This document shows positions 8,186-28,249 of a DNA stretch of 64,000 nucleotides, piece after piece. The number at the start of each line of letters is the position of its first letter. Within the stretch, counting starts at the first letter, position 1. A program made the position numbers and the translations under genes. The stretch is from Granulicoccus phenolivorans DSM 17626 = NBRC 107789 = JCM 15570 (GTDB lineage: Bacteria; Actinomycetota; Actinomycetes; Propionibacteriales; Propionibacteriaceae), in NCBI RefSeq assembly GCF_000423085.1, contig NZ_AUHH01000016.1, positions 1 through 64,000 of the forward strand, in the 5' to 3' direction. The notes beneath the pieces are model-generated. The model worked only from the letters and a program-made list of their open reading frames with translations. It had not been told where the DNA came from and did not search any database.

Positions 8186-8208
8186 TCGAACACGCGTTCG
8201 CGTAGTCT
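8186..8208 (+). promoter_or_regulatory. LexA (SOS) box and -10 element of the recA promoter
   Basis: TCGAACACGCGTTCGC (8186-8201) matches the actinobacterial LexA consensus TCGAAC-N4-GTTCGA at 11 of 12 fixed positions. A TAGTCT -10 element follows at 8203-8208, so bound LexA would cover the -35 and spacer region. The inferred start of transcription is about 8215, at or next to an ATG (8216). Confidence 0.88.
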
Positions 8209-25329: not shown

Positions 25330-26184
25330 TCAGATCCGCCGCAGAACCGTGACGACCTTGCCCAGGATGCGGGCGTCGTTGCCGTCGATCGGGTCGTAGT
25401 TCGGGTTGTGCGGGAGCAACCACACCTGCCCCGCGGTGCGCTTGAAGGTCTTGACCGTCGCTTCGTCGTCCAACAGGGCGGCCACGATGTCGCCGTTCTC
25501 GGCATCGGGCTGCTGGCGGACCACGACCCAGTCGCCGTCGCAGATGGCTGCCTCGATCATCGAGTCGCCGCGCACCTCGAGCAGGAACAGGGTCCCCTCG
25601 CCGACCAACTGCTTGGGCAGCGCGAAGACGTCCTCCACCTGCTGCTCGGCCAGAATCGGCCCACCGGCGGCGATCCGACCCAGCACCGGGACATGCACCG
25701 GCGCGGGCAACCGCTCCGCGTCGTCGCTGGGCAACGGGCTGTCCGCAGCGGTCGCGGTATGGGTGCTGTCGGGCAGCAGGACCTCCAGGGCGCGCGGACG
25801 GTTCGGATCCCGTCGCAGGAATCCCTTCTGCTCGAGGACCCGGAGCTGGTGCGCCACCGACGAGGAGGACGCCAGCCCCACGGCCTGGCCCATCTCGCGG
25901 ATGCTGGGCGGGTAGCCCCGGCCCTCGACGCTCTCCCGAACCACCTCCAGAATCCTTCGTTGCCGCGGGGTCAGGCCGCTCGGGTCGGGCGGACCGTCGG
26001 GCAGGGACAGCACCGTGGCCTCTCCGCGGGCGTGCTCGCTGGCCGCGGAGGCGGCCGCCAACTGGGCCGCCACATCTTCCTTGCGGGGTCGACCGCGGCG
26101 GCGGGCAGGTCGGGTCGGGGAATCCTCGGGGGCGGGGTCGCTGGTCGCGGAGGAGGGGGGTGGGGTACCGATCTCATCTGCCAT
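25330..26184 (-). CDS. lexA: SOS repressor LexA
   Basis: A 284-residue repressor of the SOS regulon that self-cleaves on RecA filaments. The winged helix starts at [12 protein letters not shown] (about residue 71). The cleavage bond is Ala173-Gly174 (GRIAAGG), and the catalytic dyad is Ser208 (GDSM) with Lys245 (TVKTF). The N-terminus carries about 65 extra residues including an AT-hook-like RRRGRPRK (28-35). ATG 26184 lies 6 nt after TAGGGT on the minus strand, predicting a leaderless message. A LexA box at 26216-26231 indicates autoregulation. It is divergent from the SOS-boxed membrane gene at 26443. Confidence 0.96.
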
Positions 26185-26190
26185 GGCAAC

Positions 26191-26231
26191 ACCCTAGAGC
26201 CTGCCTCCGACAGATTCAAACATCTGTTCGA
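26191..26231 (-). promoter_or_regulatory. lexA promoter: -10 element and LexA box
   Basis: On the minus strand TAGGGT (26191-26196) is a -10 element 6 nt before the lexA start. TCAAACATCTGTTCGA (26216-26231, as read on the plus strand) matches TCGAAC-N4-GTTCGA with one mismatch and covers the -35 region, so LexA should repress its own gene, probably more weakly than the perfect box at 26380. Confidence 0.85.
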
Positions 26232-26343: not shown

Positions 26344-26395
26344 TTGCGTTCGATTCGGAAGTTCGGTAGACATGTCGTATCGAACACGCGTTCGA
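26344..26395 (+). promoter_or_regulatory. SOS promoter of the membrane-protein operon with a perfect LexA box
   Basis: TTGCGT (26344-26349) and TAGACA (26367-26372) are spaced by 17 nt. A perfect 16-bp palindromic LexA box, TCGAACACGCGTTCGA (26380-26395), overlaps the expected start of transcription. Its core is identical to the recA box. The start codon of the first gene is 48 nt downstream, so this operon has a leader and a good ribosome site. Confidence 0.85.
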
Positions 26396-26442
26396 TCCGG
26401 CGGTGGCTCCGGTCACGGTCCACGAACACCCAGGAGGATTCC

Positions 26443-26886
26443 ATGAGCGCAGTACTGACCAGCAGGCCGATCGTCCGCACCGACGTGGCTGTTGTGGGGT
26501 CGTGCACCGGGCGGGACCGGCGGTCCCGGGAGCTGCGTCCGGTCCGAGACGCACGGGTGACCCGGGAGCTGCGGGCGACCCGCGCCTCCGCCGACCCGGT
26601 CCGCCGGAGCTCGGCTCCGCGGGTGGCCACGGCCGCGGCCGGGTGTCGGGTGCAGCGCCCGGTGCGTCCGGTGGCCGTGGCGGCGGAGGCCGCCGGCCCC
26701 TCGGAGTTGTCGCTGAAGCTGATCCTGGGCACCTTCGCGCTGCTGGTGATCGTCGGGGTCTTCTGTGTGGTCTCGACCGCGCTGCAGGTGACTGCCGACC
26801 CGGGGGAGCAGGGTGCCCCCGCGCTCGGTGCGGGGACTGCGCCCGTGGCCGGCGTGATTGCCGGCGCGGGCACAATGGCAGGGTGA
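26443..26886 (+). CDS. SOS-controlled Arg-rich single-pass membrane protein
   Basis: A 147-residue protein I do not recognise as a named family. Residues 1-80 are predicted disordered and very Arg-rich (about 18 Arg, e.g. RDRRSRELRPVRDAR). One membrane helix follows (about 91-114, LKLILGTFALLVIVGVF...), then a short Gly/Ala tail of about 33 residues. ATG 26443 has AGGAGGA (26432-26438) upstream. It is divergent from lexA behind a perfect LexA box, where mycobacteria encode ChiZ (Rv2719c), an SOS-induced division suppressor with a similar disordered basic N-terminus and TM helix plus LysM. LysM is absent here. An SOS cell-division inhibitor is an inference from position and topology. Confidence 0.75.
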   Translation: MSAVLTSRPIVRTDVAVVGSCTGRDRRSRELRPVRDARVTRELRATRASADPVRRSSAPRVATAAAGCRVQRPVRPVAVAAEAAGPSELSLKLILGTFALLVIVGVFCVVSTALQVTADPGEQGAPALGAGTAPVAGVIAGAGTMAG

Positions 26887-27311
26887 CCCCTGCGCCCGAT
26901 CCCACCGCGGTGGCCCTGACCCGCGGACTGGCGCGGCTGGGGTGGTTGAGCCTGTTCGGGGGCACCTGTGTGCTGGCAGGCGGGGTCTATGCGGTGACCG
27001 GCCACGGGATTCCGTGCCCGGTGCTGCATCTGACCGGGCTGTTGTGCCCGGTCTGCGGTTCGTCCCGGATGGGGGTTGCGCTGCTCCACGGTGATGTGGC
27101 GGCGGCCTGGGCGTGGAACCCCTTCATGCTGCTGCTCGCCGCGGCGTTGGCGGCGCTGTACGGGTGGACCCTGATCCGCGTGCTGCAGCGGCGCCCCGCG
27201 AATCTCCCCGGAGTGCTGGGAGAGCTCGATCGTCGGCCGACCTGGCAGGTCCTCCTCGGCGTGGTCCTGATCGGTGTCGTGTTCGCCGTCGGGCGCAACC
27301 TGCTGCGCTGA
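26883..27311 (+). CDS. DUF2752 membrane protein, coupled to the SOS membrane gene
   Basis: A 142-residue protein with three likely membrane helices. It carries the DUF2752 signature CPVCGSSRM (about residues 58-66) followed by LLHGDVAAAWAWNPF. The biochemical role of the family is unknown. Its GTG overlaps the preceding stop as GTGA, so it is translated together with the Arg-rich protein from the LexA-controlled promoter. DUF2752 genes occur in many contexts; an SOS operon would be a new one as far as I know. Confidence 0.82.
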   Translation: MTPAPDPTAVALTRGLARLGWLSLFGGTCVLAGGVYAVTGHGIPCPVLHLTGLLCPVCGSSRMGVALLHGDVAAAWAWNPFMLLLAAALAALYGWTLIRVLQRRPANLPGVLGELDRRPTWQVLLGVVLIGVVFAVGRNLLR

Positions 27312-27703: not shown

Positions 27704-28249
27704 ATGCACTGCCCGTACTGCCGTCACGCCGACTCCCGGGTCCTCGACTCCCGCGCGGTGGAGGACGGCTGCGCGATCCGTCGGCGGCGGCAATGCCTCG
27801 CCTGCGAGCGCCGGTTCACCACCGTCGAGCAGATCCAGTTGATGGTCGTCAAGCGTTCCGGAGTGGCCGAGCCGTTCAATCGCGACAAGGTGATCAACGG
27901 CGTACGCAAGGCCTGCAAGGGTCGCCCGGTCACCGAGGAGCAGTTGGCTCGGCTCGGGCAGATCGTGGAAGCCGACCTGCGTGCCTCCGGGATGTCCGAG
28001 ATCCCCGCCGACGAGATCGGGGTGGTCATCCTCGGGCCGCTGCGGGAACTCGACCAGGTGGCGTACCTGCGCTTCGCCAGTGTCTATCGCCAGTTCGAGT
28101 CGGTCGAGGACTTCGAATCCGAGATTCGCACCCTGCGGGAGAATCCGCACCACCTCAGTGAACAAGCTCCGCTGATCACGCTGCCGCGGCCACGTCCGGC
28201 CGGTCGGAACGCAGCGAAGAACCCCAGAGCCACCACGTCGCAGGCCTGA
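27704..28249 (+). CDS. nrdR: Ribonucleotide reductase repressor NrdR
   Basis: A 181-residue repressor of ribonucleotide reductase genes that senses ATP/dATP. The N-terminal zinc ribbon has cysteine pairs CPYC and CLAC. It is followed by [15 protein letters not shown] and an ATP-cone domain ([16 protein letters not shown], about residues 48-135). The C-terminal 35 residues are an extra tail rich in Pro, Arg and Ala. AAGGAGGGG (27692-27700) precedes ATG 27704. It lies 58 nt upstream of its probable target, nrdJ. Confidence 0.94.

Follow-up and report, generated by a model that had tools for sequence, protein, structure and literature searches.

A LysM-less, LexA-boxed membrane protein gene beside lexA as a candidate regulator of division in Propionibacteriaceae

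Membrane inhibitors of division encoded near lexA

The closest described counterpart of the gene treated here is that of ChiZ (Rv2719c) from Mycobacterium tuberculosis, which we take to lie beside lexA. ChiZ is small and damage-induced and shows a disordered cytoplasmic N-terminus (residues 1-64) followed by a transmembrane (TM) helix (residues 65-86) (PMC7355643, PMC3989709) and a C-terminal LysM domain (residues 113-165). For filamentation and for mislocalisation of the FtsZ ring, its N-terminal region together with the TM helix is enough (PMC7355643; see also PMC3989709). YneA of Bacillus subtilis, an SOS-induced division inhibitor with a single TM helix (PMC13396833) that is encoded near lexA (PMC3989709), needs its LysM domain for division inhibition (PMC13396833). 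The small membrane inhibitors exert their effect at a late stage of division, and one of them, the SOS-induced SosA of Staphylococcus aureus, is devoid of LysM (PMC13396833). DivS of Corynebacterium glutamicum is an SOS-induced division suppressor encoded near lexA and is reported to lack significant homology to YneA (PMC3989709).

The stretch of 64,000 nucleotides from Granulicoccus phenolivorans analysed here (the window) harbors a gene, denoted ORF1, that was likened to ChiZ in the initial annotation. The architecture agrees with this comparison, with a LexA box, the place by lexA, a disordered Arg-rich N-terminus, and a TM helix, but minus the LysM domain of ChiZ; the two are compared by architecture and not by sequence. 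ORF1 resembles YneA in its place and its TM helix, whereas YneA depends on LysM, and ORF1 neither has this domain nor matches the YneA equivalog model NF010723. SosA is likened to ORF1 by description, as both lack LysM, and a long Arg-rich tail at the N-terminus sets ORF1 apart from SosA; DivS is likewise set beside it by description. No sequence similarity to the named inhibitors was detectable with Pfam and NCBIfam. Since the LysM domain is missing, ORF1 is regarded as a protein that works like the TM-LysM inhibitors of the ChiZ/YneA type and not as a member of them. By this analogy, an SOS-induced, ChiZ-like division inhibitor is a plausible and the best reading of the gene.

For the locus as a whole we favor, with moderate confidence, the view that ORF1 is an SOS-induced, membrane-anchored regulator most likely pausing division, and that the DUF2752 gene behind it is a separate membrane-protein gene with its own leaderless-type promoter, which came to lie there after loss of an intervening gene. 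ORF1 would then be, for Propionibacteriaceae as a family, a candidate DNA-damage regulator of division, reduced to a form that lacks LysM.

The lexA locus in the window

The lexA gene (25330..26184, minus strand) adjoins ORF1 and is divergent from it. Its own LexA box, TCAAACATCTGTTCGA (26216..26231), shows one mismatch, and a second box with one mismatch (8186-8201) precedes recA, which starts at about 8434, by roughly 250 bp; because of these two boxes, the LexA motif is considered to be in use here. Throughout the genome, 28 sites match the motif with at most one mismatch, as opposed to 8 for the reversed control pattern. Perfect boxes number only four, one of which is the box of ORF1, TCGAACACGCGTTCGA (26380-26395, 0 mismatches), located 63 bp 5' of the ORF1 ATG. 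The remaining three are found at L150 (C41:26369), L149 (C23:60448), and L151 (C47:25490); one of these is followed after about 100 bp by an ORF that appears DprA-like by eye, and the other two likewise precede ORFs.

ORF1 (26443..26886, plus strand; 147 aa) is preceded by a Shine-Dalgarno sequence, AGGAGG (26432..26437, plus strand), read off the sequence. Residues 1-80 of the product contain 18 Arg, no Lys, and 6 Asp or Glu. This Arg density equals that of the densest 80-residue stretch counted among the neighboring proteins (one of them with an unverified start), and because neighbors reach equal density, Arg richness alone is weak evidence. AlphaFold2 yields a single confident helix (residues 88-117) and low confidence for the rest of the chain; this helix, which the alignment of relatives also supports, is taken as the TM helix (26704..26793, plus strand). 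A GCRV segment (residues 67-70; 26641..26652, plus strand) falls into a Cys region that is conserved in the alignment. ORF1 has no match in Pfam, NCBIfam, or PADLOC, and a consensus scan gave neither a sigma-70-like promoter nor a terminator.

The second gene (26883..27311, plus strand; 142 aa) starts at the GTG of a GTGA overlap with ORF1. Its product is a clear member of PF10825 (DUF2752; 58.6 bits, cut-off 27) with invariant Cys45/55/58 and the sequence CPVCGSSRM. It is modelled confidently by AlphaFold2, with three long helices (pLDDT 90). A Foldseek search of the model against the PDB gave nothing better than E 5.7, and as a PDB relative is missing, its function is not readable from the fold; a literature search returned no paper mentioning DUF2752. 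The conserved downstream neighbor of the locus is nrdR (27704..28249, plus strand). With this, the descriptive part of the initial annotation is reproduced, namely the perfect box, about 18 Arg in 80 residues together with one TM helix, the lack of LysM (no Pfam or NCBIfam match), the GTGA overlap, and the DUF2752 assignment.

Putative promoter and neighborhood of the DUF2752 gene

A -10-like hexamer, CACAAT (26871-26876, plus strand), is situated within the last ORF1 codons, 6 nt before the GTG of DUF2752 (26883), which corresponds to a leaderless geometry. In bacteria, including actinobacteria, TANNNT located some 12 bp upstream of the start codon is a mark of leaderless genes (PMC3160421), and Propionibacterium acnes is described to use TAnnnT -10 boxes and leaderless mRNAs (PMC3848588). 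Across DUF2752 loci, the window included, a hexamer of the form nAnA[AC]T, usually followed by GG, precedes the DUF2752 start by 6-7 nt in 40 of 48 loci when several candidate start codons are allowed per locus, and it is present in all 16 loci of the tandem type, where DUF2752 follows ORF1 (L115 among them). As controls, 2 of 84 nrdR starts and 1 of 62 starts of ORF1 showed it, and so did 3.5% of ATG/GTG triplets overall. Reading the hexamer instead as a tiny upstream ORF (ATG-N6-TGA) was rejected, as variants such as CATACT lack the ATG while the spacing is kept.

The hexamer begins with C or G in 37 of 40 Propionibacteriaceae DUF2752 loci, in contrast to Kribbella-type DUF2752 genes, which show TACnnT 6-7 nt before the GTG in 19/19 cases; no -35 element to match the Propionibacteriaceae hexamer was seen. 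This first base and the GG, as opposed to TACnnT, may reflect the use of another sigma factor or an altered promoter. The conserved element is interpreted as a candidate promoter, and DUF2752 in the window is probably a transcription unit of its own that starts within the last ORF1 codons. Since DUF2752 probably has its own transcription start, the GTGA overlap does not necessarily indicate an operon.

The distribution of the gene was followed in 198 genomes of the family. DUF2752 is present in 93/198 genomes and missing from 105/198. Placements within 1 kb upstream of nrdR amount to 52, with 49 of them on the nrdR strand, and elsewhere the gene is unlinked to nrdR. It directly follows ORF1, with zero or small spacing, in 15 genomes from five genera, which include the window's own genus, an Auraticoccus-type and an Enemella-type genus, and part of a Microlunatus-type genus. 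The initial annotation let its proposal stand or fall with the presence of the pair beside lexA in relatives; the survey found the tandem in these five genera only, with the two genes separated or reversed or DUF2752 absent elsewhere, so that most genera lack the pair beside lexA and ORF1 alone persists.

In many relatives, a gene on the reverse strand separates ORF1 from DUF2752, usually encoding an RDD-family protein (PF06271) with a Pro/Gln/Gly-rich start, and in one locus with DUF2752 a DUF805 protein instead. Where DUF2752 is separated from ORF1, no LexA box was found within 300 bp of it (0/23 loci). A scan of genome contigs gave no match with the DUF2752 protein alone and succeeded with an alignment as query. 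In Kribbella-type genomes, DUF2752 is divergent to an RDD gene in 18/19 loci, and these loci are devoid of lexA. The RDD-DUF2752 pair is thus found in Kribbella, Actinopolymorpha, and many Propionibacteriaceae loci; the window carries the DUF2752 partner and, unlike the pair, has no RDD gene at this place, with four RDD genes elsewhere in the genome. In L115, a Microlunatus-type locus, a truncated reverse-strand piece of an RDD gene (E 1e-16) is retained between ORF1 and DUF2752. A LexA tree, although poorly resolved, requires the arrangement to have changed at least twice, and seven changes are needed under parsimony. The simplest history that these sequences suggest is an ancestral, divergent RDD-DUF2752 pair beside the SOS gene, from which the intervening gene would have been lost in several lineages, yielding the tandem. 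DUF2752 is therefore probably an incidental neighbor of ORF1, and its case illustrates that after gene loss a neighbor may resemble an operon partner.

The GTGA overlap would possibly permit read-through and translational coupling from ORF1 to DUF2752. A refinement of the favored explanation, compatible with it, supposes a passive SOS capture: DUF2752 would keep its own promoter, and in this lineage and some of its sisters gene loss would let damage-induced transcripts from the ORF1 promoter run on into DUF2752, the two products sharing no function. The zero or small spacing of the tandem, the RDD remnant in L115, and the -10-like element retained in every tandem-type locus fit such a course, whereas transcription may also terminate after ORF1; it is put forward tentatively, at somewhat less than even chance.

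ORF1 homologs with and without LysM

Because a plain protein search with ORF1 among the 198 family genomes gave a single clear homolog (E 2e-8), homologs were sought by position. In 58 genomes, nrdR was located and the upstream DNA read between lexA and nrdR; ORF1 was called by position, TM helix, and start signal, since a gene caller based on GC3 misses this short Arg-rich gene. Nearly every genus of the family has, divergent from lexA, a short ORF whose product carries a single TM helix close to its end. A LexA box with at most one mismatch occurs within 200 bp upstream of it in 48 of 50 relatives and is perfect in 37, compared with 0.5% of the 200-bp windows elsewhere in the same loci. Most relatives also carry, close to lexA, a TCAAAC..GTTCGA box similar to the lexA box of the window. 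Of the claim in the initial annotation that the box controls two genes, the part on ORF1, a conserved SOS-boxed gene, is plausible; for DUF2752, control by the box is an interpretation that lacks support as the prevailing mode.

The aligned ORF1 products share a common plan consisting of an Arg-rich tail, an [AG]CRV-like Cys segment (ACRV, GCRV, or ACQV in many relatives), the motif LTxRG conserved just before the TM helix, the helix itself, and a short outer tail. In the window, ORF1 retains the Cys segment as well as TALxVT at the end of its helix, while its LTxRG has drifted. No LysM was seen in the ORF1 proteins read from Propionibacteriaceae. Judged by position, box, and plan, ORF1 accompanies lexA throughout the family and evolves fast. 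As an aside, the genera g4 and g13 (L046, L047, and L048) show a single-TM ORF at the same place before nrdR without a LexA box; in g4 no lexA turned up in the vicinity, in g13 the sole match was weak (28% identity), and SOS control may have been lost or replaced in both.

In three sister families, the same position holds a gene with LTRRGR and a TM helix, mostly followed by a LysM domain. A profile comparison of the LysM-less with the LysM-bearing set gave a probability of 81% (E 1.3e-5 in this one comparison) over 34 columns covering the motif and the TM helix. A sample of the class comprised 20 loci from other families, 17 of which hold lexA; a TM-LysM gene lies beside lexA in 14 of these 17, and LTRRG is present in 13 of the 14. 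Several LysM-bearing homologs also harbor a Cys similar to that of the ORF1 segment. Two of them score 45.1 and 40.4 bits with NF010723, below its cut-off of 60, and the literature search gave no relevant paper mentioning the LTRRGR motif. On the strength of these alignments, ORF1 appears to represent the branch without LysM of a lexA-adjacent gene of the class with the plan LTxRG-TM(-LysM). The LysM-bearing form is probably the older state, as deduced from its distribution, and the form in Propionibacteriaceae would have lost LysM.

For the action of ORF1 as a division inhibitor, the following course is proposed. LexA, acting through the 26380-26395 box, would repress ORF1. Once LexA is cleaved, the product would enter the membrane by its one TM helix, leaving the Arg-rich tail on the cytoplasmic side, and would probably act on the septal synthesis machinery (FtsW/FtsI/FtsQ), as was reported or proposed for ChiZ, YneA, and SosA. 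With the extracytoplasmic LysM absent in Propionibacteriaceae, tail and TM helix would have to suffice. Induction, topology, division arrest, and target are what we infer for ORF1. The LysM-less form is a natural case for asking if tail and TM helix are enough, as reported for ChiZ and not for YneA, and the juxtamembrane LTxRG motif and the Cys segment provide conserved sites that can be mutated.

Alternatively, ORF1 could be an SOS-induced envelope protein and not a division inhibitor, with the LysM-bearing homologs hinting at cell-wall binding and the LysM-less form possibly a decayed relict. The general lack of LysM in Propionibacteriaceae and the very fast change of the sequence, which left one clear homolog, would suit this explanation, as would the inactivity of YneA without LysM (PMC13396833). 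Yet the ORF and its LexA box persist in nearly every genus covered, together with a conserved Cys segment and LTxRG-TM, and this pattern is not that of a relict; we consider this explanation unlikely.

The weakest proposal is that of the initial annotation, in which a single LexA-controlled operon comprises ORF1 and DUF2752, whose products jointly act on the divisome: the GTGA overlap, the lack of a detected terminator between the genes, the tandem without intervening gene in 15 genomes, and its changing arrangement on the LexA tree can be read in its favor, but the conserved -10-like element of DUF2752, the RDD or DUF805 gene in between, the separated copies without LexA boxes, the RDD partner in Kribbella, and the many genomes in which DUF2752 is absent or unlinked to nrdR make it very improbable. 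The same low expectation is attached to a variant restricted to lineages that lost the intervening gene, where DUF2752 would have been drawn into the SOS response to form a two-protein checkpoint with ORF1, replacing the extracytoplasmic role of the missing LysM.

The intervening gene itself varies: L069 and L077 carry at the RDD position a DUF805 protein with a repetitive N-terminus, and one type of small membrane protein has apparently been exchanged for another there.
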